DNA from: Branchiostoma floridae
Taxonomy: Eukaryota > Chordata > Leptocardii > Amphioxiformes > Branchiostomatidae
Length of the DNA stretch: 64,000 nucleotides
Direction of reading: 5' to 3'
Assembly: GCF_000003815.2 (NCBI RefSeq)
Contig: NC_049983.1
Location: 9,219,470-9,283,469, forward strand
Numbering within the stretch: position 1 is the first letter of the stretch; each line of letters opens with the position of its first letter. The notes under the pieces were generated by a model, which searched no databases, was not told the origin of the DNA, and worked only from the letters and a program-made list of their open reading frames with translations. Position numbers and translations under genes: made by a program. Of this stretch, positions 27,430 through 61,200 are shown in pieces.

Positions 27430-28975
27430 AACTTGAACTTTATTAAAGTCACCACTTTGCAGGCAATTGAGCCTGAATTGTGTTGGTGTTTACAAGCTTC
27501 GTTATTAAACATTGTTTAAAAAGTTATTACAATTTTAAAGGCATACTTTACATTGACTTATAATTTTGCTTAAAATCACAAATTACAGACGTTTACTATA
27601 CAATATTTGTAACAATGAGTTCGGTACACGTCATACGGATGTGATAGTGCGTTAATTGTCATTCAACAGAGCAAGGGCCCTGGGGATAAACGATTGCGAA
27701 TGTCTGTTGGACCGGCTCAGTGGCAGCTTAAAACGGGGAGCCCGTCGTAGCTGGTACTGACACTCTGTAGCCGGCTGCAGGAACTCCTGGCAAGGGTGAG
27801 TGGCGTCAGCCACCACCCTTCTCAGTTCACGTACAGTCGCATCCCGTCTCCGGGACTCCAAGGTAGGTAGCTGTTCGTAGGGTATACCGATGATCCTGCA
27901 ACAGGACCTCTGGACTTTCTCCAGCTCTTCAGCCAGACCGCGGGGTAGACCTCCCCACACCGGTGAGCCGTACTCCAGTACTGGGCGGATGAATGTCTTG
28001 TAGATCTGGAGAAGTACGTCTGCTGGTAGCCCGGCTCGTTTGGACAGTCGCAGGTAGTGAATCCTGGGGCTGACTTTCGACAACATGTACTCAATGTGTG
28101 GGCCCCAGGACAAGTCGTCGCTGACTATCACTCCAAGGAGTTTGAACCTCCGCACACGTTCTACGTTCTCCCCGTTCAAAGTAAGTGGAGGGGGGTTCAC
28201 TGCCTCCTTACGACAGCTGACCACCATGTCTTTGGTCTTTTTCACATTAGCTGCCATACTGTAGGACTTCGCCCAAGAGTCAACTTCATTGATGGCAAGT
28301 TGCATTTGGCCTGGTAGCGATCCCATGAGAAGTTCTGTGTTTGTCAGGTCATCAGCGTACTTAACTGGGGCTACACTGATCGGGATGCCTTTGTCAAGAC
28401 TGTTCATGGCCAGGACAAACAGAGATGGCGAGATGATCCCACCCTGAGGGGTTCCGGCGAGTACTGGGCGTGGCGAGGAGATACACGAACCCCACCTGAC
28501 ACGCTGTACACGGTCACTCAGGTAACTGCGCAAGCAACACCACAGGTCCCGTCTCACCCCCATCTTTGCCAAGCTATGCAGAAGACTGCCGTGGTCAATT
28601 GTGTCAAACGCCCGGCTAAAGTCGATGAATGACACATGTACATCCATTTTCGGCTTACTGTTGAGCGCGTCGTGCCAGGTTTGCGTAATGTGGTTGAGGG
28701 CCGACACCGTTGATCTCCCCGGCCTGAAGCCATGTTGGGAGCCATGGATCAGGTGGTCAGTGTCTCTCTGTAACAGCACACGGACAAACGATTCCAGTAC
28801 TTTACCCAGACAGCTGGTAAGGGAGATTCTTCTGTATTCTTCAGGCCCCTTGGGTTTAGATGTCTTCGGTACTGGAACGACCAACTCCGACTTCCATTGT
28901 TCAGGGAATATGCCCTGTTGCAGACAGGAGTTGTAGATGTTACATAGCACAGGAGCAAGTTCCTCGTGGAAAGTA
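27430..28975 (-). mobile_element. 5'-truncated CR1-like non-LTR retrotransposon
   Basis: It includes the reverse transcriptase frame ending at 27652 and a ~220-base 3' UTR. The UTR ends in a small hairpin, CAGGC...GCCTG (minus strand, near 27462-27478), and then GACTTTAATAAAGTTCAAGTTCA, a short-repeat tail. A 3' hairpin plus microsatellite-like tail is typical of CR1/L2-type elements. Similarity to the family starts around TFHEEL in the frame, so the 5' junction is near 28975. The endonuclease domain is missing. Confidence 0.75.
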
Positions 28976-29031
28976 GTCAGAACATACAAAATGTCATGAG
29001 AAAACGGACGTATACTGTCAAGAATTTTCAT
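27652..29031 (-). CDS. reverse transcriptase of a CR1/Jockey-like LINE, 5'-truncated
   Basis: Open frame of 459 codons. It shows the non-LTR reverse transcriptase blocks in order: ELVVPVPK (about 49-56), HGFRPGRST (100-108), FIDFSRAFDTIDH (135-147, first catalytic Asp), AGTPQGG (192-198) and KYADD (224-228, catalytic Asp pair). These are followed by a KLLGVIVSDD thumb segment and a PVLEYGSPVW block. There is no endonuclease or RNase H domain. The first ~20 codons do not look like the family and follow an in-frame TAA just before the ATG. The open frame therefore starts partly in host sequence after 5' truncation, and it is unlikely to be mobile on its own. No frameshift or stop interrupts the reverse transcriptase part, which suggests a fairly recent insertion. 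Same strand as IPO9 and FReD, lying between them. Confidence 0.93.
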   Translation of the reverse strand: MKILDSIRPFSHDILYVLTTFHEELAPVLCNIYNSCLQQGIFPEQWKSELVVPVPKTSKPKGPEEYRRISLTSCLGKVLESFVRVLLQRDTDHLIHGSQHGFRPGRSTVSALNHITQTWHDALNSKPKMDVHVSFIDFSRAFDTIDHGSLLHSLAKMGVRRDLWCCLRSYLSDRVQRVRWGSCISSPRPVLAGTPQGGIISPSLFVLAMNSLDKGIPISVAPVKYADDLTNTELLMGSLPGQMQLAINEVDSWAKSYSMAANVKKTKDMVVSCRKEAVNPPPLTLNGENVERVRRFKLLGVIVSDDLSWGPHIEYMLSKVSPRIHYLRLSKRAGLPADVLLQIYKTFIRPVLEYGSPVWGGLPRGLAEELEKVQRSCCRIIGIPYEQLPTLESRRRDATVRELRRVVADATHPCQEFLQPATECQYQLRRAPRFKLPLSRSNRHSQSFIPRALALLNDN

Positions 29032-35451: not shown

Positions 35452-38398
35452 CTAAGTTTGTCCTGCGTGAATGTCTTCCTTGTACATCTGAACAGTGACG
35501 AACCCGTGCCGGTACAACTGGCAGGGTAACTTGTGTCCGACAAACGTCCACTCGTCCTTCTTGGGATCGTAGCACTCGATGCAGTCCAGTGCGGGCCCGT
35601 TGGACTCGGTGACGCCGCCGGACACGTAGATCTTCCCGCCCACCACGCTGACGCCGCAGTTGTCCCGCTTGATGTTCATGTCGGCCACGCGTACGATGGA
35701 GTCGTCAGACGGGTCGTAAGCCTTCACCGTCTTAGAGGAGCCTCCTGGAAACAGATGAAATACCACAGATAAGTCTCAAGTCATCGTTAATGAATGAATG
35801 AATGAAGACCTTTAGTTAATATGGTTAATAATGGTCATCGTTAATAATAGTACATTGGGCAGTAAGTATCCTTGCTGTTTTAGTTGCAGGAATATTTTTA
35901 CATGGATGGGTTGGTAAGCATATTCCTTGTTTCAGGCACCTCCTCTAACACAAACACTCGTTTAGTCCCTTCCAAAAGACCGGTCACTGTGTGGTAGATT
36001 TATGATACGTGATTACTGGCTATTAAAGTCGACACTGTGATTGTTATGACTCTTTGATTATACATTTGTACGTGCAAATTGACGAATGACGTCTCTTTTG
36101 GTCATAAATAAAGGGCGCCATGTCTTCAAAAGACCATCGTCGAAACAGCAACAACTTTGGAACAATGTCTCTCCTTTTTTGAACCTTACATCTAAAACTT
36201 TATCTTTTAGTAACTATATAGCTAGAGTTACGATATTACCGTGACCGACAGCAACAATGGGCAGCAACAATGGTCAGGTGTGTTGCGCAGAAAAATAGGT
36301 GTGTTGCCCATTGTTGCTGTCGGCCAAGGTATGATGTACACAAAATTGTGAGTGCCCACCTAGTAAGTATATCCTGTTGTCCAGTCTGACGGCATGTGCG
36401 CAGGTGTAGTCTATCATGTTCGACTCCACCACACTCCAGGAGTTGTTTTGGGGATCGTAGCACTGCAGCTGCCGGGAGATGTTATACCCGTCGTAGAACC
36501 CTCCAAACACGTAGATCCTGCGGTCGTAGGCGGCCACGGCTGGGCACTTCACCGCGTGGACCAGAGGGGCGAGCCTCTCCCACTTGTCCGTATCGGGGTC
36601 GTACCGCTCCACGTCCTCCAGACACCGTTGGCCGTCGTACCCGCCAATGACGTACACCTTCCCGTCGAGCACCGCGGCACCGTGGTGGTAGCGCGGATGC
36701 AGCATGGACGCGATGGGTTTCCAGACGTTGAGGTAAGACACGTAGCACATGGCGTCTTTTCGTGCCTTGTCGTTTATCAGTCCGCCTGTGATGTAGATGT
36801 CATAACCCGTGGAGACAGCGCTGGAGACTTGAAGATCTTTAGACGGCACGGGACCTAGAGCTCGCCATCTCTGGTGGACTGGGTCGTAGTAGGGCACTTC
36901 CCGCGCCTTGCTCGACCCTTTGAAAGTCTTCTTCTCTCCACACACTACAACCATGACTTCCACACAGTTGCACTTTCGCGGTCGTCTCTGTCTCGTCTTC
37001 ACCGCTCTTCTGTACGTACCCGAGATCTGGAAGGCCCTCGCTTCGTATATCTGTTGGACGCACCCGTCGGAGTTGTACACGAGCGGGTCAAGCGCGATCT
37101 TGGAGATCAGATACTCCGGCGTCACGAACGGCAGACGAACCAGCTCGATCAGCTGATCCAGATCCTGCGATCTACCTTCCCGATCGAACTTGATCCATCT
37201 TATAATCGCCTTGTAGATCTCTTCTTCGTTTTCCGTGTTCAGTTCATCATCGGACAGATAGTCTACAATGTACTGTTTAGGTAGCTGCAGAAACTCCTCC
37301 GTTTTTATGACTTTCGAGAACCGACTTCGGGCCAAGTCTCTCGCTTTTCGAAACAGCGAGTCGCAAGAATGAATCTCAGCAAGCTTACGAATCTCTATAC
37401 AGTTCGAGACGTCTAGGATCCGCTCTAAGAAGGTGAGGCAAGCGTCTTTGACGGGCAAGACTTGTAGTAAGTCGGAGGCTTCGAAGAGTTGGAAGACGTT
37501 GTCGCGTGTGAGGGTGACTTGGCCGGTGTAGGCGTAGTCCAGGTGAAGCTGCATGGTGTCGGCGGGGATGCCTTCCATCTTGATCCGCTCGGCACGGCTC
37601 TCTCTCAGGTTTCCTGCGAACATGGCCGTGAAGTAGGGGCTGCTGGCCGCAAGGACGGCTCTGTGGACAACGTGGCATTTTTAAAGAGTTGGCTATTCAT
37701 CTCATATGTCACTAGTAATGATAGTTGTCTTGGAAAAGCGTGGTAGCTACATTGATGCGTGATAGCGATAGGTAAAACTTTGTCACGTTATTTCGCCAGC
37801 AAAAGAATTCAATCTGTTATCTAATTTTCACCATAAACAGATTCAAGAAATTTGCGGATGTTGGATAGCACCCCCTTCGTGAAAACCCATTCATACAACA
37901 TTAAAGATTTCTCTGTTCTTATGCTCACAATGTGATGTAGGGTTGAATAGCAAAGCTGTCTATAGCATGTTCTTGTGGGAGACTATCCGACTTTGGGATG
38001 TAGATTAAGTTTAGACATCCAAGGAAAGAGTGGAGGTAAAGAGGTAATCGGCGATTTGCAACATTGGCTAAGATTCTCTTTGCTGGGATCGGAAAGATAA
38101 TTTTGACGCCGCAAAATCTAAACTACTTTCTCTATGCTGGGTTCTCATTTCTGCACTTTCCAAGCATAGAAAACCTTAGCCTATGTTGAAAGTCACCAAT
38201 AAAAAAACGCGAAGAACGAGTCTGCAAAGGTTCTTTGACATCTTCAACTCACCGGTGACAGTGGAACTCCTCTTCTTCTACAGCCAGAATGACGTCAGTC
38301 AGTACCTTGAACCCGCGCATGTCATTTAGCGCCTGGAGGATGTCCGCTGCCTGGAACGGCTGGTTGAAGTCCATCCTGTCTGTAGTCGGACTGGGCAT
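35452..38398 (-). CDS. Kelch-like protein (BTB-BACK-Kelch), KLHL24/KLHL35-like
   Basis: Three coding exons (38253-38398, 36360-37660, 35452-35744) give 579 aa, the usual length for the family. The BTB domain is at about 30-135 (LTDVILAVEEEEFHCHRAVL, SSPYFTAMFAGNLRES). BACK follows at about 136-240 (LDVSNCIEIRKLAEIHSCDSL...). Kelch repeats run from about 275 to the C-terminus, with Gly-Gly pairs in YITGG, YVIGGYDGQRCLEDVERYDP, YVFGGFYDG, YLLGG and YVSGG. Such proteins dimerise through BTB, bind cullin-3 and present substrates on the Kelch propeller for ubiquitination. The substrate cannot be told from sequence, and the nearest vertebrate member (KLHL24, 35 or 38 group) needs a tree. The ATG at 38398 is chosen because a good acceptor (TTTGTTGCAG) lies 12 bases upstream, making everything before it a spliced 5' UTR. 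Confidence 0.93.
35855..35985 (-). mobile_element. SINE-body relic in Kelch intron
   Basis: It matches the body of the SINE at 23690-24007 in order (TTTCCTTGCTGTTT..., AGGCACC/AGGTGCC, GTCCCTTCCAAAAGAC against ATCCCTTCCGAAAAAC). Diverged and headless. Confidence 0.45.
36245..36323. repeat. perfect 19-bp inverted repeat (hairpin) near a Kelch donor
   Basis: CCGACAGCAACAATGGGCA at 36245-36263 is exactly complementary to 36305-36323, with a 41-base loop. It lies 37 bases inside the intron after the donor of Kelch exon 2 (exon ends 36360). A partial direct copy of GCAACAATGG also sits beside the left arm. Confidence 0.9.
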
Positions 38399-45217: not shown

Positions 45218-48200
45218 TCAATCTTTGTCTGGCACTTTCTTGCCATAGTACCACTCCGCTAACGTGTCGGGATGAACCCCCATCTTGTACGCCAGCAGTA
45301 TGAACGTGTTCATCGATGTCACCTGGACGTGAGAAACAAAGCACAACATGAGACAAGTGTCTGTGAAGATGCAAGTTATAACACTACCAAAACTATAATG
45401 TATGGTATCAGGACACCTTTTTGCACCAATGTTTGTCAGTCACACAAAGACTCAGACAGGAGACATGCCCTAGAGTTGTTGCTGCGGCAGCTCTTAATAA
45501 CAGGTTGCACATGACATCATTATAAAACACACCTAACGTGTTAACATCTCGTTTTACACCACAGGAGGCCAGACATGTGTTGTATCAAGGTTTCCTTTAT
45601 GTAGAAATAATAACTTTTGAAACCTTGTCCTTTACAAATGATGATTTCATCCCAAATGTAGGTTGATGTCCAAGGATACTGTTATGTCTGTAATCAATTT
45701 TGATTATGTAAATGTACATGTGTACATGTCAGAATGCATGATTTATGGTTAAAAAGATATTGTGGATGATGTCATTGTAATGGCAGTTGTAATGCCAGGG
45801 ACAAAATACTGTTCACACTTTTGATTAGAGACAAGGGTGTGGGGACTGTGACAAAGGCTATGTGACAGAATGACATCATGTAAATGTACAGGGACAGATG
45901 AAGGGAAAGTGGGGCCTTTAGGCCTATGTCATATTTCAAAACCAGGGCCGGGCCAGGCAGCTTTCGGGAACGAAAAGTATGATATAAAAGACACCAAACT
46001 ACACATGAGATAAAGAGAATAGTTGTGGGCATTATTTGTGCATATTTTTACATATACATTTCTATTTTCCGCTTCCACAAGGAGCCCAACTGGGCCCTGG
46101 TTTGGAAATTAGCCTATCATGCGTTGCAATGAAAAACAACAACAAAAACAACCTTTTTTGAACTGCCATTTTGTCTTCAATTTTTATGTAAAGTTGTTTG
46201 CACCAGTCAACTACAACTATTGAAAAAGTTGGGAAAGTTTGCTTGCACACAATCAGTGGAGTAAACTGGAGCTAGAATAGGATGGATTCCTGGCTACTCA
46301 CAAACCAGTGCTCAGACCTTGGTTGGAGAGTAGTCAGTAGCAAAGTCATGGGAAGATGTGTGACAGAAGCTTTACAATGTGATAGCAAGAGTTGCTTCCA
46401 CATACCTTGAGGTAGCCATGTTTCCTCCACCTGCGAGCGGAGGTTACCACCCCCCTCCCGTCTACGATGGCCACGTGGCCGTGCTGCTTTAACTGCTGCA
46501 CCATCTCCACATCCTCCAGCAGAGGGAACTCTGGGAAGCCTCCCACCGCCTGGAACTGTCTCCTGGTCATAAACAGTGCCTGGTCTCCATATGGCAGTTC
46601 TGTGAAAAAATATGAAATGTAGTAAGCCGTTGTTGCTGTCCATGTTTAACATCTATTATTTTGCTAGATGTGGCCTCTAGGTGTTGGATAACTTATGGTT
46701 TAGTATTATAATTTCTTGCTTTAATCTGATGAGGGTAACTTGCTTGCCTTGGAATCCCAACAACAACAAATTGTAATGCGCAAATTGTTACTGTAAGCAA
46801 TCCGCAGAAGGAAAAGTCAAATAACATTTTCACCGAAAATATTACATACATTTCAAATGGCATCAATTTGTCTAAGATGAATGATACTGCCTGAACCTTC
46901 TGTCACTTAGTATATCTTCCGCGTGTGATGTTTTTATATGTCAAAGTGTCAGAATTTCAATACTTACACTCATTTACTTTCATCTAAACTCACCAAAGAA
47001 TGAAGCTCTTATGTTGGTCCCCCATTGTACAAGTCTCATTTGTGTCCTAAACCACCAGGAATCTGATCTGAAATAACAAATCTATATGTTATTCTGAACA
47101 GGCAATTGTACAAAGAAAGAAAGATACTATTTAATAGTACTTCAAATGTACATTACAATTTTAATGTACACATGTACTATAGTACACTCACATGCTGAAG
47201 ACCCATCTTCTACTATAATCAGACTCATTTGTACTATACTGTACCACCCTAGCCTTGGTACTGAAATGCATTCTTCACCTTGCACTATAATGTTCATTCC
47301 CTTACCTTAGTGAAAAAAACAAACTTCTTCCATCTTATAATATAATGCACCACATATAGCCTTGGTACTAAAATGCATTCTTTCATCTTGCACTACAACA
47401 TTTCCTCCCATTCCCTAGTGCAAAAAACTTCTTCCATCATACACTATGATGTAACACCTATAGCCTTGGTACTGAAATGTATTCTTTCATCTTGCACTAC
47501 AACATTCCCTCCCATACGCTAGTGCAAAAAAAGACTTCTTCCATCATAGTATGATGTACCACCTTTAGCCTTGGTACTGAAAAGCATTCTTTCATCTCAC
47601 ACTAAAATGTTTCCTCCAATACCCTAGTGCAAAAAAACTTCTTCCATCATACAAAATAATGTACCACCTATAGCCTTGGTACTGAAATGTATTCTTTCAT
47701 CTTGCACAACAACATTTCCTCCCATACCCTAGTGCAAAAAAACTTCTTCCATCATACAAAATAATGTACCACCTATAGCCTTGGTACTGAAATGCATTCC
47801 TTCATCTTGCAATACAGTATTCCCTCCAATACCCTAGTGCAAAAAAAATGTACCACCCTAGCCTTGGTACTAAAATGCATTCTTTGCTATTTGGAATATA
47901 ACAAGGGGATTTATTTACTGTACCTTGAATGATTTGAATCTTCCACCACATCGAGTCCAAAACGAAAGGCTCCCACCACCACCCCTGGCCTGCAGAGTGT
48001 TCTGTACGCATCCTGTTGCCATGACAACGGCAACTGTGTGTCAGCATGCAGAAAGAGGAGGTAGTCTCCTGTTGCATGCTGGGTACCGGTGTTCAATTGT
48101 ACTCCTCTACCTGGGGACAGGGTAGGATAATATGTCAGTGTTCTATGAAAGAAAATTATTTCACATTCAACCATTTTAACCAACCGAAGTTTTAGTAGAG

Positions 48201-51200
48201 TGTTCTATATACAGTGATATACGCAATTCTTTCAGCACTGCCCTCAATGAAGACACACGATGTAAACAGTTAACCAAGGTTGAACTATTTGTACGTATAA
48301 TGACAGCCACAAACATTGTACAGCAAAAACTATATGAGTTCGTATACACTTGTTTTAAGAAGAGGGAAGAGGCATGAAAACAATAGTTATAGCGTGATAG
48401 CATAGCTCCAGATGTTTTGTTTATCCTGAACTGTTTGCTTGTATCACTACTTGTAATAGTATTGCATGCGATATGTAATACACATGTACTATTGAATTGC
48501 TGCAAATAGCCCATGTGCGCAAGAACATGCAAATAAAGATCTTGTTAACTCAACAACTACATGATATAGAGTTAACCATGGCTTTTATCATTAGTTAGAC
48601 AAAAGAATCCTCAGGATAAGTGACAATTCGTTGCAATATTAGCCCATAAAATCATCCAAAAATGTTGTGTGCATAATGTCATTATTGTCCAATACCATTA
48701 TGACTGGATACAAGCTTGACTGTTCCCCGAGGATACGACTTAGCCATGTGTCGGACAATGTCTTGAGTACCATCTGTGCTGCCTCCGTCACTCACCACCA
48801 CTTCTACATGGTGCTGGGGTGAGAAGTTCTATAATGGTAAAATAAAAATAGCACACTGTCAGGTCTTCAGCACTGAAACCACTGGTGTGTTATGCCAAAG
48901 GGCGGTTATACTGGCTATTTGGATACAGATACTGATACAATGTATTTTATTACAATTCCAGATTGATTAAATAAGGACAAGTGGTTTTTAAGCTCTATGT
49001 TTAATGAGTACCTCTGTATGAAATCTAATCAAAGCAAATTTGTATTACACATGTGCACCAGAATCTATCACGTATGTACCATGTTAAAAATTTGCTTTCT
49101 TTCTGCTCTATCTAGAGAACATCTACATGTACCTCTAGTGTATTTTCTATCGTAGCTTTGATGTTCTCTGCCTCATTCAGTACAGGTATGATGACACTCC
49201 ACTTTGGGCTGCACAGTTCCTGCCGAGGGACGCCTGTCATCCGCTCAAACTCACCAAGGTCATCTGATGTGTCCTGAAACACACTTTTACGATCAGATAT
49301 GATTCATTGCAACACACTCATTTTGTCTTTCTTGTTCTTAATTGTACTTGTTGAGATTTCCTCAATCATTTGAGTGGCCTCACCAATGGTTTATCTCCTT
49401 CTCAGCATCCGTTGTCCTACAAATATCATTATTTCATTGTTGACTACTCTGGTGTAGCAAATTACCATGACCCCTGACCGTACATCCCACCTGCTAAATC
49501 TGTAGCTTGTTACCCTCTTCAAGGCAGCTTTTGCTAATCTGGATTCACCAGGCATGGGATTGATCCCGATGCACAAAGGCATGTCTTCCTCAGCAGGTGG
49601 ATTTAGCAGATCCAGCTTCTGTTGTGATTGGGTGTATCTTATATCACTGTAACTCAACACACTCTCTTACCTTTAAAACAGCATCTATTTGAGCACCTAT
49701 TTGAGCATCTATTGAGTGTATCTTACAACATACAAGTTTAACACTCACCACATCCTGTAACTTTTGAGACAGCAGGTGGCACCTGACTCCCAGCTGTTCC
49801 CCCACCTGCAGCTGCTGTTGGAGCACCTGATCTGTCCCCCACCTCATCCCCTGGAACAGCTGACCTATAGAACATTTGTAACAAGAGTTCTGAGACCTCA
49901 TACCTCCATGAAATATTTCATGTGAGTTTTCATCATAAGTTTTACATTCCTAGTTTGCAGCACATAGGAATAAGAAAAATCAATACTCCAACCTCTGGTG
50001 GTAGGTGTCATATTTCCCAGCATGCCCAGCAAGTCAATATGGCAGCAGCCATATGATTCGGCATCTATCATCAGGGGTGGATTGCTAACACATCTTTACT
50101 CAAATGGACCGATCCTGAAGCCCTGTCTCCTGTTTGATCATGGTTCTATCTTTCAAACACCTCCATCAAAAACAGTGCTATTAGGATAAAACTGGCCGCT
50201 AGCAGTATTTTAGCTGATAATACCGACTAACATTTAGCTTTTGGGCCCTGAAGTCCTCCCAGTATAATTCATACTTCTGCAGTGTCTGAGCCCCTGTAGT
50301 GTCCATAGCCCCTGTAGTATTCGTAACCGTTGTGGTGTCCGTACCCCCTGTAGTGTCTGTAGCCCCTGTAGCTTTCGTACACCCCAATAGTAGCCACTAA
50401 GGCACAACAAGGGTCATAGCAACATCAAGATACAAGTACAGTACTACTGATTAAACGTTCTTTACCTATAACACTGCTGTCTGTTTGTCTGTTCAGACCG
50501 ACTAGATAGTAACCACCATCTATAGCAGGCCCTAGAACACAGACATCTTCTTCCTGAGTCGACTGCAGAATCTGAAGAGCCTCCTCCAAAATGTCTGCAG
50601 TGATGGCAGGAATGTCACTCCCTACCTGTAATGTTGAACACAGACAAGGAAAACTGGTATACAAAGGATTGTGCTTGGAGCAACTTGGTACGTTTCTTAA
50701 GGAGCACATTGTCTTGTTGAGCATTTTCACAGCATACAGGAAAATATTGTTCTGACAGTTATTGACGATGATAGATGAGTGTAGAAGTGTAGAACTGTAA
50801 CATGAGAGTTGAGTGAAACTGTTGGGGGAGACCTAGTGTGAGCACCCAGACAAAGGATCTCATTAGTGACTGTTAGTCAGGTTTATGATTAGTTTTGTAG
50901 GCATAGTTGTGTTAAACTTTGCTAAACTAGGTTGGCAGTGGTCTGTACTGCAAGTCTCAGGCAGACACGGCTCTGACCATTTGTTTCAAAGGAAACAGTA
51001 TAAGGTACGGGTATGAAAACTAGATAGGAAAACCCTTTAGCATCCTTGGTTCTGTGTAACCCAGCACTTACCAACACCACATTTTCTGTACCCTCTTTAA
51101 AAGCATCCTGAAAAGCGTTGGCCATTTTGTGTCCCAGGTCCTCTCCGTCCTGCACCCTCCACCAACAGCTGATGTCCGCCCTTCTCTCCAGCCAGTACCT

Positions 51201-52059
51201 CATGTCGTCCTCAGTACCTCCATGGTAGCGCACTTCTACTGAAAGACTCTCTGGGTCCCTCTGTTGAAATTTACCCGCTTCATGTAGAATGGCATTTGTC
51301 TGCAACATAGGTTATATTGGTAACAGTGTTACTAGACATAAAAGACTTTTGTAGACATTTCAATATGGTAACGTATGATTGGCTCCTTCTAAACCAGTCA
51401 AAGAGCCAATACACAAAACTGGTAAGTTCAAACTGTTATAATATACTGTAAATGCATTTAAGTTCGCGGGGATTTAATTTGGCGGTGGCGGGAAAAAGGA
51501 CTTTTCGCAGTGGTTTTAAGTTCGCGGTAACACCATAGACTGCAGTCTAACACCATAATAGAAAAATGTTCGCGGTGGTTTTAAGTTTGCGGTGAAGTAG
51601 TCACCGCAAAAACCGCGAACATTAATCCACCGCGAACATTTCTGCTTTACAGTAATACATAGTGTACCATTAGGCTCTTCCCTGTGGCATTGCCAAAATT
51701 ATGTACCCAGAAAGTCCACACATTAAGCAAAAGTTTTTTCTAATGACTCAGCAGTTTCAAGTACAGGCAAGAATATCTTAGTCTTACTATTTTTAATGGG
51801 TTCACATTGTTTATGAATTTGACAAACAATAGAAATATAGAAACACCATCACCATGTAAAGCTGTGCCAGTGCTGCACCCTGTTCTCCAAGCGCTGGTTT
51901 GAGTCTAGATTTGGTAGTTCCTGGTGAAGGGTACCGGGTGAACACGATCACACGCTGACGTCTGGACTTCAGTGATCTCTTCTTTCGATAGTTGATGTAG
52001 CCAGGTATTGTAACAGCAGCCACAGCGGAGGATAAGATAACAGCGGCGCGGTAGGACAT
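45218..52059 (-). CDS. two-module glycosyltransferase fusion (DUF2064/TIGR04282 + GT2/TIGR04283)
   Basis: Ten exons join in phase to 509 aa: 51853-52059, 51072-51299, 50466-50625, 49749-49864, 49133-49273, 48696-48813, 47924-48110, 46994-47067, 46406-46599, 45218-45322. Residues 5-21 form a hydrophobic anchor followed by a basic patch (NYRKKRSLKSRRQR), suggesting a membrane-tethered enzyme. Module 1 (about 35-245) has the DUF2064 signatures VIVFTRYPSPGTTKSRLKPA, DGEDLGHKM, VLVGSDIPAITADIL, LGPAIDGGYYLVGL, WGTDQVL and DVDTSDDL. Module 2 (about 265-509) is a GT-A family 2 enzyme: WSVIIPVLNEAENI, VVVSDGGSTDGT, GRGVQLNTG, GDYLLFLHADTQLP, GAFRFGL, PYGDQALFMTRRQF, PLLEDVEMV, TSARRWRKHGYL. In bacteria these occur as separate neighbouring genes, annotated as rSAM/selenodomain-associated or arsenosugar-biosynthesis glycosyltransferases. 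The two modules meet at the exon 4/5 boundary. Donor and acceptor sugar are unknown. Divergent from ABTB1. Confidence 0.92.
45930..46112. mobile_element. MITE, ATTTC(C)AAACCAGGGCC ends
   Basis: The left end ATTTCAAAACCAGGGCC is mirrored at the right end by GGGCCCTGGTTTGGAAAT. The body is shared with 39609-39782. It lies in the last region of the glycosyltransferase gene (between exons 9 and 10). Confidence 0.7.
47240..47885. repeat. ~105-bp tandem repeat, six to seven copies
   Basis: CCTTGGTACT begins at 47253, 47360, 47464, 47569, 47674, 47779 and 47862, so the period is 107, 104, 105, 105, 105 and then 83. Each unit carries TGTACCACC-TAGCCTTGGTACT, TTCTTTCATCTTGCACTA and CCCTAGTGCAAAAAAACTTCTTCCATCAT. 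It fills the glycosyltransferase intron between exons 7 and 8. Confidence 0.9.
50275..50390. repeat. imperfect short tandem repeat (GTAGTGTC-AGCCCCT)
   Basis: Repeated variants of AGCCCCTGTAGTGTC about 15-18 bases long, in the glycosyltransferase intron after exon 3. They create a low-complexity Thr/Gly frame on the minus strand, which is not a gene. Confidence 0.65.
51444..51654. mobile_element. palindromic MITE, second copy
   Basis: TACTGTAAATGCA at the left and CTTTACAGTA at the right, with TA at both borders. The interior GTTCGCGGTGGTTTTAAG / CCGCGAACATTAATCCACC blocks match the copy at 24722-24940. It lies in intron 1 of the glycosyltransferase fusion gene. Confidence 0.85.
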
Positions 52060-52984: not shown

Positions 52985-55229
52985 ATGGATCTTCATGAAT
53001 TGTTCCTGGCGTGCAGAAAGGGAGATTTGTCGCGTGTCAAGTGAGTTTTCCGTCAAAGTTTGCTGATCGTCTGCTACTAGGTTTCAAGTGGGAGGGGGGC
53101 GTTTTCCTGCATAGGCAACTTCTCTTGGTGTGTGTATTTAGCTGTAGCTGCCTCTGGTGTCAAGTGACAAACATACTCTATAATAGGATCTTACCCGACC
53201 TTGTCTTGTACATCACAGTCCAGGACAACGTTCCAAAGAAATCTTCAGAACCGACAAATAACAAACATTTCAAACATTAATTTTGGAATTTTGTCAGTTG
53301 AATTTGGTATCTTAGATGAGAAGGTATTTCTGAGACCTACCTGCACTTAAGTACTTTTTTCTTTCCTGTAACTATGTATTCTTAGAAATAACAAATTGCA
53401 AACCAAAGAAAATAATAAATGGCTTTGTTACAGCTTTCCATATGACAAATTCTTTTCCTACAGAGTAGTGCAAGTAAATTTCTCGCATTAGTATTGAGAT
53501 TATGCCTTTGTTCCAACACCTGCTACATATACTTGCATACTCTGCATAGTCATGATGAATGTATTTTGATGACTCTCTTGTAGGACTTTCAAATAGTTCA
53601 AATGAGCTGAAATCATGACCAATAGGCCTCAAATGACTGAGAGAAGACCCACTAGTCTGAAGAATACAGTTGTTACTGATTAGCACCTACTTGAGAAAAT
53701 GATTGTTTGTTTAACATTATTCTATTGCAATCAAAAGCAACAAATCAAGGGATGAACATTTGCAAAACATACATAGTAGTTAATTAATACTGTATTGTGT
53801 AACTTATAATGATTATGAGATAAATGACTATACTCAGGGTTATAAGACTATTAAGAGCCTCTGTAAAAATAAAAGCGTCCCGAATGGTTTGGATGCTGGT
53901 CCGGGACAGCACCCGTGTCCAAATTATGACTGATTTGGCCGATGAACATTAGGTCTTTTTTCATTAGAAAATGTCTGAAAATGGACATCAATTCCTTACT
54001 GGAAATCTCGAACGGACGGGATGAAGCAAATCTGGATTGGACAGGGGGGTTGGGTCAGGGAAATTTGGATTGGATAGGAGGGTTGGGTCAGGGAAATTTG
54101 GATTGGATAGGGGGGTTGGGTCAGTGAAATTTGGATTGGATAGGGGGGTTGGGTCAGGGAAATTTGGATTGGATAGGGGGGTTGGGTCAGGGAAATCTGG
54201 ATTGGATAGGGGGGTTGGGTCAGGGAAATCTGGATTGGATAGGGGGGTTGGGTCAGGGAAATCTGGATTGGACAGGGGGGTTGGGTCAGGGAAATTTGGA
54301 TTGGATAGGGGGGTTGGGTCAGGAAAATCTGGATTGGATAGGGGGGTTGGGTCAGGGAAATCTGGATTGGATAGGGAGGTTGGGTCAGGGAAATCTGGAT
54401 TGGATAGGGGGGTTGGGTCGGGGAAATCTGGATTGGATAGGGGGGTTAGGTCAGGGAAATTTGGATTGGATAGGGGGGTTGGGTCGGGGAAATCTGGATT
54501 GGATAGGGGGGTTGGGTAAAAAAAATCTGGATCGGATGGGGGGGGTTGGGTTAGAAGCTGGATTGAGACCTCTTCCACCCCCCCCTTCTCAAATATTTTT
54601 TGGAACAGCCCATTGCTTGTCATGTTTTGTTGATCTCAGGGTTTACTTAAGATTTATCAAGGCAGAGGTTGTTTATAAAAGGCTCAGGTCAGGGAAGAAT
54701 CATAACCCTAAACGGGTTCAATTCAGTTCAATCATCACAAGATTCACAGGGTGCCATTTCTATCATTGTAATAGGAATTGTAACTGTCACATTAAAAAAC
54801 TGATGTGAGCGCGCGAATAAAAATGAGGTATGAAATATAAGTGGTCAGGAAGGTTGTAACGGGTGTAATGGGTTTTCCTGAATAGATAATGGACACACTA
54901 TATTGGCAGGCATTTTGGGGCTTACAGCTGGGCCAAGAAAATATCAAGAGCAATGTTGAGTAGAAATAGAATTTATAGTCATTTGCACCAGGTTTCTACA
55001 GTCAAAGGTACAGAGGCAGTTAACTTTGACTACATTAAGATAGGATTTTAAAATGCCTGAACCGGACCTGTATCTGAATTTTCTGTACTAGCACCCACCC
55101 CTACCAACAATAGATTTTCATTTTTGTTCTTTTCCATCTTATCTGCACTATTTCAAACAAATATGTCTAAAATGTTCTGTACAAGTACTTAGATGGGAAG
55201 CAGATAATGCTGATTCAGGGTCATAAATT

Positions 55230-58200: not shown

Positions 58201-61200
58201 TCAGGGTACTTTGCAGAGATGCTGCAGACAAAGTGGAAGAACAAGGCTCACGTTCAGATCAAACATAGTCTGGTCAACCCCAGCGCATTCAGATCAGTGT
58301 TACAGTATCTATATACAGGTAAGCAAAGCATTGCCAAACTATTAAGGGAAGTATGACAGTTACTGTAAGAATTGTTTCAGTGGTTGTTGTATGATTTTCA
58401 AATGTTTGGGAATGGTCATTACCAGTAGAAAATGTGGGTAGTTTTTAGAACAGGACTCCCAATGTTACATGGGCCCATGTTATATTGAATCTAGCTGTGC
58501 CATGTCTATGTGATAAAACTCTCTCTTTCCCTCTCACTGTAGGTCGATTAGATACTGATGTCTACAATGTTGAGGACTGTATAAGACTGGCCAAGCAGTG
58601 TCGACTAGGAAAACTCATCGATGAACTTGAGAAGAGGCTAAAGGCAGTGTATGACTTCGGTATGTATTGTATGACTTTAGTTGCATTGCATTGTGAGTAA
58701 ACAGCTTTAATTCATTACACCCAGGTTCAAGTTTTAGGGACCAGACTTATAGGGTTGTTTCATTCACACCAGGATGGACTCCTATGTATATTGTTAGTTT
58801 TATGTGGCGCTCAAGGTATGGCTGTCCTTAAATATGGAACCTATGGCTTTACATCGTATTCAAAGGAGTGTAACCCTTTCCAGTATAGGGTGCAAGTTGG
58901 TTAAGCGCCAAAGGCCACGATTTATGTTTCTCCTCTCCAGGCCCAGAAAAAGCATTACTTTGAAAGTTTCTTAGTTTCTTCATAACGTTTGCAAGGTGAC
59001 CTGTTGTAGCTCTTCATCATGTTCCTAATTCTGTCATTCAGAGTACTGGCCTTTGTAAAGACAATGCTCACTACCGAAGGTGTTGGTTTCACATTGTGCA
59101 CCTGGCCTGGTTTTACTATTTTTCTGCTGCCCTGAAAACAAAGAAAAAACTACAAAGAACAATGTCTGCTTTAAAGTAGGATCCCACGGGTCCAGAGATG
59201 AGGTTACTTAGCATCAGCTTGTGTCTTTTTCCCCCAGTATCTACCAAGCCAGGCACTCATGTGACCATGATCAGTGTGGAACATGAGGGTCTGTATAACC
59301 AGGATCTATGTGAAGACTTCGGCAGACTTGCGGAAAGCTGCATGCCTCCAGAGCTGGGCAACTGGGTATGTGCAGAACAACATTAGCACAACCAATTTAA
59401 AGTTGAAAGGAATCATTAAAAATGTTCTTCTTCATATGTTGATGAAGGTAAAGTAAACATTTTAAGTATCCAAGTAAATATTTTTTGTATTTCAATGCCT
59501 ACAACTACAACTACAACAAAATACAGACATTACTTCCAGACATTTTGTGTGATATCCGTCACTATGAACATAAATACATGAGATGTAGCTCGTACTGTTG
59601 AATAGGAAAAGTGATGAATGTCACTCAAAACATAATCTCAATATTCTATCCAATTGTAGAGATTGAATTGTCTTTAAAACATGTTTTTCTTGGTTGAGTT
59701 CCTTTCCCATCCTTCTATGTATGTGGATATTTGCTAAAAACTATTGGATTTTCCTTTTCAGGTCACCTCCGGAGTCTTACCGTTTTTCTGCAGCCCTGAA
59801 GACGAAGACAAGACTGCGTATGATGACGTCTGCTTTGAGGTAGAATCCCACAGGTTCTACTGTCACAAGGTAAGGCAAGTTCCTACCCACTGATAATTCT
59901 TTCATGTGTTTAAACACTTCGTCACTGAATACAAGAAAAATAGGTTAGTAGCCTGAGTGCCAGCCTCCGTAATGACTGCTGGATCAATTCAAAAGGATTG
60001 AGCCAGCTGTTACTATGAGGGCTGTCACTCAGGTTAAAAAAGACACTCCCATATTGATATTAGAAAAGTCCCTTTTTCCACTTGTTACCATTGATATCTT
60101 GTATTAAAGCACTGTACTTGTTCTATAGATATTGTTTTTCTAGATACAGTCGCAATTTGCTTTTAGCCAAGAACTTGCAAATCGATAAATAAAATTGTGC
60201 TTTCTGTATCTATGTTAGAAGACTTGAAAATATTGATTCATAAAGGTAAGGAAGTCAGAAAAAGGCGAAAATAGCATTTCAGAGGGTGTAGATTTAAAAC
60301 AATTTCTGGACCCCCCAGGATCGTCGCGTCTGCCGTGCTCAACACGATTTCCATTCAAAATCCAGAGGACGTAAAAAAATTCAGGCTAGCTAGAACGCTG
60401 ATCTTCTCCAATTTTATAACATTCACAGTTGTGTTGCTTAATTGTGACAAACTACTAGTATTTCCCCTTTGTTTCCAGGTCTTTCTCTGTGGTCGCAGTG
60501 ACTACTTCAAGGCCCTTCTGATTGACCACTTCAGCGAGAGACCTAAGGAGGACTCGGAGACGGAGGCTCCCATCCCTGTAGTGGAGTTGCATGATGTCAG
60601 TGCATACGTCTTCAGCAGGGTCTTATACTACATCTATCAGGACAGCACTGAGGTAAGGGCTTGGATAAGGATTGTAGTAGTTTTTTTTGGTGATTTTGAT
60701 TTTAATTATGATAATGCTGAAATGACAAACAATAGTAGTAACAATAGTACCAAAATTGAAAATAACAATGATGACAATGATTGCAAAAAATGTTGTTGGT
60801 GTAGAATATTCTTCCTCCTAGCAGAAAAGGTTTACAGAAAAGGCTGGGCTGGCTATTATGTCAGGCTACCCAAGTACCCCCATTCATCGCCCCAATTCTT
60901 TTTTCCCTCGCACACACTACTTTGGGGCGGGCTTAATAGTATTGTATGTGAGTAGCTTGACACGAGGCTAGAGGGAAAAACATTATGAATTTTTGCAAAA
61001 ATGTTGTTTTCTAGTTTACCTGTATAATTCCTAATATTGCGTGCTGAAGTCTTGTACTTTTACCTGCAGGTGTCCCCTGACCATGTGTTTGAGGTGTTAC
61101 GAGTAGCGGACATGTACCTGTTACCTGGGCTGAAGAGACAGTGTGCCAACGTCATCAGTCAACACCTGGACGAAAACAACGTCATCCCGGTCCTCCGAGC

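Follow-up and report, generated by a model that had tools for sequence, protein, structure and literature searches.

The window (the whole stretch of 64,000 nucleotides of Branchiostoma floridae DNA analyzed here) carries a spliced gene in which a TIGR04282/DUF2064 module and a GT2 module of the TIGR04283 family are read as one protein, and we consider that this protein, on balance, probably has two enzyme functions in a cephalochordate pathway of the arsenosugar type. The chemistry and the product we infer from a gene set that is spread over the genome: the window gene lies on contig C5, a diverged second copy on C6, and a gene for the radical SAM enzyme ArsS (TIGR04167) outside the window on C1. 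With these genes on three contigs, there is no neighborhood linkage in amphioxus.

The whole coding gene occupies 45218..52059 on the minus strand, and the splice model (CDS 52059..45218) gives it ten exons, nine GT-AG introns, and 514 codons plus a stop. The preliminary description was right to call it a spliced gene of ten exons that fuses both modules; the protein length it gave, 509 aa, should be corrected to 514 aa. Exon 1 (51853..52059) holds the start codon, a hydrophobic stretch at residues 5–23, and the start of module 1 with its GTTKSRL motif. Module 1 continues through exon 2 (51072..51299), exon 3 (50466..50625, with the GSD and GPxxDGGYYLxG motifs), and exon 4 (49749..49864). Exon 5 (49133..49273) contains the end of module 1, from D238 onward, followed by the linker and the beginning of module 2. 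The remainder of module 2 is encoded by exon 6 (48696..48828, DGGSTDG), exon 7 (47924..48110, RGVQLN and LHAD), exon 8 (46994..47067), exon 9 (46406..46599, GDQ and ED), and exon 10 (45218..45322), which also supplies the stop. The domain seam had been placed at the exon 4/5 boundary; that junction falls instead after V237, inside a conserved D-V-D motif of module 1, and the flanking D236 and D238 are both kept in 40/40 bacterial module 1 rows. Because splice-compatible open frames are retained in two copies, a single transcript is predicted.

Module 1 (residues 37–243, spanning 49256..51951 with introns, minus strand) matches TIGR04282 with 174 bits (E=2.8e-51; profile positions 1–189 of 189) against an NCBIfam cut-off of 134, and Pfam DUF2064 with 100.9 bits against one of 25.8; there is also a weak match to NTP_transf_3, below gathering. 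Module 2 (residues 263–505, spanning 45248..49198 with introns, minus strand) matches TIGR04283 with 221.5 bits (cut-off 182; E=9.6e-66; profile positions 2–221 of 221), which puts this family 168 bits ahead of the runner-up NCBIfam family at 53.5 bits; this gap speaks against membership in an ordinary animal GT2 family, the alternative that the preliminary description had named as refuting. Module 1 keeps 31 of the 36 columns that are conserved in ≥85% of 40 bacterial rows, deviating from the bacterial residue at V49T, T51S, Y66Q, R127K, and T216Q. Module 2 keeps 29/31 such columns (≥85% of 45 bacterial rows, one long-branch GT2 row being left out of the count), including D298, D303, H350, D352, D421, E444, and D445. 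Our searches of the open-licence PMC literature found no enzyme with assayed activity in either family, and likewise no paper on the amphioxus fusion gene or on DUF2064.

The second copy, on C6, has the same domain order at 64% identity, and the alignment with the fused protein takes in 503 of the 519 residues of its model. Eight of the nine junctions match those of the window copy in aligned column and phase, while the ninth is off by one column with equal phase. A comparison of 506 codons between the copies gives a dN/dS of 0.15, a sign of selection; at a pS of 0.686, synonymous change is almost saturated. An N-terminal anchor had been proposed for the protein, and the hydrophobic stretch is present in the window copy (mean Kyte-Doolittle 1.57) but not in the C6 copy, where a scan over the first 60 start positions reached no more than 0.72. 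Since domain order and junctions are shared and dN/dS is low, chance or a pseudogene is unlikely as an explanation, and we rejected both two neighboring genes and a pseudogene. We give hardly any credence to the idea that the model merges two adjoining genes, or that we are dealing with contaminating bacterial DNA or with a pseudogene: the nine introns are canonical, the contigs are large (C6 28.1 Mb and C1 35.3 Mb, with the window within C5), the fused structure recurs in the second copy, and the substitution ratio speaks against decay.

In bacteria, the two modules had been described as separate genes, which is not always so. Both occur in one ORF in 6 of the 41 genomes examined, all of one phylum (47 genomes were positive; G035, G102, G144, G222, G244, and G252 were not included), and we therefore rejected the notion that the fusion is an animal invention without bacterial parallel. 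These fusions come in both domain orders, with the TIGR04282-first order of amphioxus in one of the six. A pattern scan recovered one relative among 287 pattern matches in genome contigs and none among 26 in viral contigs. Trees were built from 42 rows for module 1 (including four of the six fused bacterial proteins), 48 rows for module 2, and 31 rows for ArsS, sampled from one phylum plus six plasmids; the module trees omit L023/L024 as duplicates, a second GT2 ORF from L104, and every domain shorter than 150 residues, which is why two of the fused proteins are missing for module 1. Each of the two amphioxus modules has a long stem (1.17 and 1.72), and all three trees leave amphioxus at open forks, so that we rejected the naming of any bacterial donor. 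As to the evolutionary origin of the amphioxus gene, which we can only infer, a bacterial gene may have entered already fused, or as a pair that fused later; entry in fused form is possible because of these open forks on long stems and the one bacterial fusion in the same order.

The preliminary description suggested looking in the same genome for an ArsS-like radical SAM gene and for As3MT/ArsM. The former is present: the spliced ArsS model on C1 scores 422 bits (cut-off 300), its CxxxCxxC is intact, and its seven or more exons yield pieces that span profile positions 2–302 of 303. For the first coding exon, there were short, unconvincing candidates only. A PDB search with this protein returned generic radical SAM matches (E≥7.2e-4). 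AS3MT is listed for B. floridae (PMC5398495). In our own searches of the genome, NF008823 matched in part at 17 places, all of them under cut-off and none identifiable as AS3MT, and a cyanobacterial ArsM query found nothing.

The amphioxus ArsS is apparently a candidate animal radical SAM selenoprotein, judging from its sequence. An in-frame UGA stands at the position of the C-terminal motif that is Cys in 30/30 bacterial homologues (L024, the same gene as L133, and L099, with a broken frame, were dropped from this set), and homology continues after it with the residues xG common to the bacterial rows. In the 3′ region lies a SECIS-like element, a full-length SECIS_1 match (E=5.6e-4) with 32.4 bits, below the gathering threshold of 35; its fold z-score is only −1.48, with 12 of 200 shuffles folding equally well. 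The site is absent from a genome-wide SECIS list in which 150 of 11176 candidates were scored, and the window itself has no SECIS match at E≤1. TIGR04167 is listed as a GxxU selenoprotein in the excerpted text of PMC13188914. We found no paper in the open-licence PMC literature on an animal radical SAM selenoprotein, nor any on a selenoprotein with radical SAM in amphioxus.

In the pathway that we propose, AS3MT would methylate arsenite to dimethylarsenic, and ArsS would put a 5′-deoxyadenosyl group onto the arsenic; adenosylation of arsenic is the chemistry given for ArsS-type enzymes in the excerpt of PMC12159101. A phosphorylase of the MTAP/MtnP type would then take adenine off, leaving 5-dimethylarsinoyl ribose 1-phosphate. 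Module 1 could turn this compound into a nucleotide sugar, TIGR04282 presumably having a CofC/MobA-like nucleotidyltransferase fold although it is named “glycosyltransferase.” Module 2 would transfer the arsenoribose to an acceptor, for example glycerol phosphate or a lipid, and the fusion would allow the activated sugar to be handed from active site to active site.

Another possibility, which we think unlikely, is that the nucleotidyltransferase and GT2 modules serve a different sugar-conjugate pathway that has nothing to do with arsenic, the co-presence of ArsS being incidental. It is worth remembering that the names of both modules derive from genome context and not from assays. Moreover, ArsS over cut-off is missing from 24 of the 47 genomes with the module pair, including all six with a fused protein; the pair therefore also works, or worked, without it. 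Incomplete draft genomes may account for part of these absences. Nevertheless, all 23 of the ArsS-bearing genomes (among 285 of one phylum) have matches to the fused protein at E≤1e-15, as compared with 24/262 of those without ArsS and 47/285 in all, which gives a Fisher p of 3.6e-21 for genomes that are related and not independent. Likewise, ArsS adjoins the modules at several loci: of six plasmid ArsS loci, opened out of 54 matching records (47/54 Burkholderia), five have a TIGR04283-type gene and four a TIGR04282-type gene no more than 9 kb away, and mtnP is near ArsS in two of five annotated loci. That a gene as rare as ArsS, found over cut-off in those 23 genomes and in 1 of 14 control genomes, should co-occur with the fusion in the same animal genome also argues against coincidence.

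It is very improbable, in our view, that selenium or another nucleophile is handled in place of arsenic, with a selenosugar-like product and the Sec of ArsS as a mark of selenium-linked chemistry, even though TIGR04167 is named rSAM/selenodomain and the amphioxus protein is an apparent selenoprotein. Bacterial ArsS genes have arsenite-methyltransferase-like neighbors, and there is one ArsS-methyltransferase fusion, all under the cut-offs of the ArsM families; in Pseudanabaena, the ArsM adjoining ArsS is annotated as arsenosugar ArsM, and the chemistry published for ArsS, as excerpted, involves arsenic (PMC12159101). Quite improbable, too, is a purely dietary route, in which algal arsenosugars are taken up and arsenoribose from the diet is remodeled, or conjugated anew, by the fused enzyme. 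Arsenosugars do reach invertebrates along the food chain, according to the excerpt of PMC10456119, but ArsS, as maker of the As-C5′ bond, would be superfluous for remodeling and yet is retained.

Returning to the arsenosugar reading, amphioxus may make these compounds itself, because the fused enzyme gene and ArsS are in the same genome. That a chordate does so de novo, with a complete nuclear set of AS3MT, Sec-containing ArsS, and a fused two-copy nucleotidyltransferase-glycosyltransferase, we offer more tentatively, as something a little short of probable. The arsenosugars of marine animals are usually ascribed to food, as far as the excerpted source goes, and this gene set opens endogenous synthesis to testing; we found no arsenic speciation of amphioxus in the open-licence PMC literature. 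The enzyme order in the fusion suggests a role in nucleotide-sugar synthesis for the uncharacterized TIGR04282.

How does this compare with known systems? Module 1 aligns along its full length with the CofC-like 2-phospho-L-lactate guanylyltransferases (TIGR03552, E=5e-8) and with PDB 3cgx, a “putative nucleotide-diphospho-sugar transferase” (E=1.9e-22); it differs from CofC by its score, 32.8 bits and far under the cut-off of 105, and presumably by its substrate. The bacterial TIGR04282 and TIGR04283 “arsenosugar biosynthesis glycosyltransferase” pairs belong to the same families over cut-off and have the same conserved residues, whereas the amphioxus form has nine introns, a hydrophobic stretch in one copy, and two copies per genome. 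With bacterial ArsS, the amphioxus protein shares a score over cut-off, the CxxxCxxC, and the C-terminal CTAGxGSS(C/U)xG motif; it differs by its introns, the UGA at the last Cys position of the motif, and a sub-threshold match to the eukaryotic-type SECIS_1, while prokaryotic Sec forms rely on bacterial machinery. Table 1 of the amphioxus selenoproteome paper (PMC3473315) gives 40 selenoproteins for B. floridae, and none of the 21 families in the table is radical SAM or ArsS; if our reading is true, ArsS would add a radical SAM family to the animal selenoproteins, the first to be described in an animal.

The fused gene on the minus strand of the window (52059-45218) is one real gene. The window (G000:C5:9219470-9283469) belongs to an amphioxus genome of 513,431,437 bases in 431 contigs, and our splice model of the gene has ten exons, nine introns that are all GT-AG, and a single open frame of 514 codons. 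TIGR04282 spans residues 37-243 of the protein (174 bits against a cut-off of 134) and TIGR04283 residues 263-505 (221.5 bits against 182); the next-best NCBIfam family after TIGR04283 reaches 53.5 bits, and Pfam agrees, with DUF2064 and Glycos_transf_2. The observation of a fused gene in the preliminary description is confirmed, and its interpretation partly supported. It had placed the domain seam at an exon boundary; exon 4 ends after residue 237, so that its junction with exon 5 separates D236 from D238, whose columns are Asp in 40/40 bacterial rows of module 1, and the seam therefore lies inside exon 5.

Family searches of the whole genome also find both modules on contig C6, where a second fused copy (C6:4870040-4880564; L019:2040 to L021:2564 in the fetched pieces) is modeled with ten exons and 519 aa. 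The copies are 64% identical (503/519 residues of the C6 model used), and eight of their nine exon junctions agree in aligned column and phase, the ninth being one column off with its phase kept. Between them dN/dS is 0.15 over 506 codons (dS 1.85, close to saturation), and this second copy under selection is among the strongest new points. As for the N-terminal anchor claimed earlier, a hydrophobic stretch is present in the window copy but absent from the C6 copy.

Other features of the window can be listed briefly. A 105-bp tandem repeat (5.8 copies, 47235-47847) lies within intron 7 of the fused gene, and a 33-bp one (15.8 copies, 54028-54551) is open in more than one frame. Ankyrin/BTB-like frames on the plus strand (~52985 and 60275-60955) begin head to head with the fused gene, ~0.9 kb apart; these were recognized by eye, as were two minus-strand ORFs, BTB/kelch-like (468 aa, 36274-37680) and LINE-type reverse transcriptase-like (459 aa, 27652-29031). 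A weak Rfam mir-2001 match on the plus strand (36236-36332; E=5.7e-4, 35 bits where gathering requires 74) overlaps a short CAGCAACAATGGG repeat, adjoins the kelch-like ORF, and is probably due to chance.

The modules had been described as separate genes in bacteria, which is not always so. Using a profile built from the two amphioxus fusion proteins, we searched 285 genomes of Candidatus Omnitrophota (the phylum of G001) and obtained matches in 47 (E<=1e-15). ORFs were checked in DNA from 41 of these, and six carry both modules in a single ORF, all above both cut-offs; the amphioxus order occurs in one of them, L086 (448 aa), and the opposite order in the other five. With both orders present, fusion has arisen more than once, and since a same-order bacterial fusion exists, fusion inside eukaryotes cannot be asserted for amphioxus. 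Trees covering amphioxus, as sole eukaryotic genome, and bacterial rows unite the two copies in one clade for both modules (100/100), but the stems are long and the forks from which they spring are unresolved; amphioxus ArsS likewise sits at an unresolved fork in its tree. For module 1 the nearest row by path length is L086, without support.

In the bacteria sampled, ArsS mostly keeps company with the modules. ArsS scores above cut-off in 23/285 Omnitrophota genomes, all within the 47 module-bearing ones (Fisher p=3.6e-21, indicative only, given two differing E limits and related genomes). Among six plasmid loci opened from 54 matching records (47 of them Burkholderia), a TIGR04283-type gene lies within 9 kb of ArsS in five and a TIGR04282-type gene in four; at the Pseudanabaena locus that stretch holds neither, and ArsM is present. 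Against a strict link, 24 of the 47 module-bearing genomes have no ArsS above cut-off, including all six with fused proteins. Of nine Omnitrophota neighbor ORFs scanned, four are arsenite-methyltransferase-like, below the cut-offs of the ArsM families. Long Omnitrophota ArsS frames of 500-750 aa occur at L087:4486-6540 and in L092, L093, L106, L108, L112, L135, and L136; the one scanned, L087, has an arsenite-methyltransferase-like domain behind ArsS, again below ArsM cut-offs.

Although TIGR04282 is named a glycosyltransferase, module 1 resembles nucleotidyltransferases: its matches include CofC at E=5e-8, under that family's cut-off, NTP_transf_3 at E=8.9e-4, short of the gathering score, and 3cgx, a "putative nucleotide-diphospho-sugar transferase" (E=1.9e-22). 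The chemistry of ArsS is described as arsenic adenosylation (PMC12159101, crediting Cheng 2021). We infer every chemical step in amphioxus: ArsS would make the adenosylated product, phosphorolysis would strip its adenine to give arsenoribose 1-phosphate, module 1 would convert this to nucleotide-arsenoribose, and module 2 would form the glycoside. This route is consistent with the nucleotidyltransferase likeness and with the mtnP-like phosphorylase gene near the ArsS cluster in Acinetobacter and Burkholderia. B. floridae is listed among animal AS3MT sequences in PMC5398495; our genome searches leave this neither confirmed nor denied. A cyanobacterial ArsM query had no match in the amphioxus genome, and NF008823 touched 17 partial places, none above cut-off, two of them (C12 and C4) with two exon-like pieces.

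The preliminary description proposed looking for ArsS in the same genome, and it is there. Six exon pieces on contig C1 together match profile positions 2-302 of 303 in TIGR04167, and a spliced model of seven joined exons (403 codons; C1:21267246-21272238, L020:3246-8238) reaches 422 bits, well over the cut-off of 300; the first coding exon was not found. Identity to bacterial ArsS reaches 53%, and the CxxxCxxC cysteines are invariant in 31/31 rows. The frame ends HCYGCTAGMGSS-UGA-QGSTVS-stop, and SECIS_1 is matched over its full length ~160 bases 3' of that stop (C1:21272397-21272459, L020:8397-8459; E=5.6e-4, 32.4 bits), with the core elements AUGA, AAA, and UGA. That the genome holding the fused genes also encodes this spliced ArsS, carrying a UGA and a SECIS match, is likewise among the strongest new points.

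Should the SECIS be believed? Its position and strand are those required, and the 64-kb window holds no SECIS match at E<=1. Against it, 32.4 bits is below the Rfam gathering score of 35, the predicted fold is just 1.5 sd better than shuffles, and the site is missing from a genome-wide search, although that search scored only 150 of 11,176 candidates and assigned E=0.026 to a 32.7-bit site. With its in-frame UGA at the motif Cys and the SECIS_1 match downstream, we regard amphioxus ArsS as a candidate animal radical SAM selenoprotein. It differs from the B. floridae complement as tabulated in PMC3473315 (Table 1: 40 selenoproteins, 21 invertebrate families), where no radical SAM family appears. 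In prokaryotes, TIGR04167 is listed among selenoproteins with a GxxU motif (PMC13188914); in our alignment, the column holding the amphioxus in-frame UGA is Cys in 30/30 bacterial ArsS rows, followed by a shared xG.
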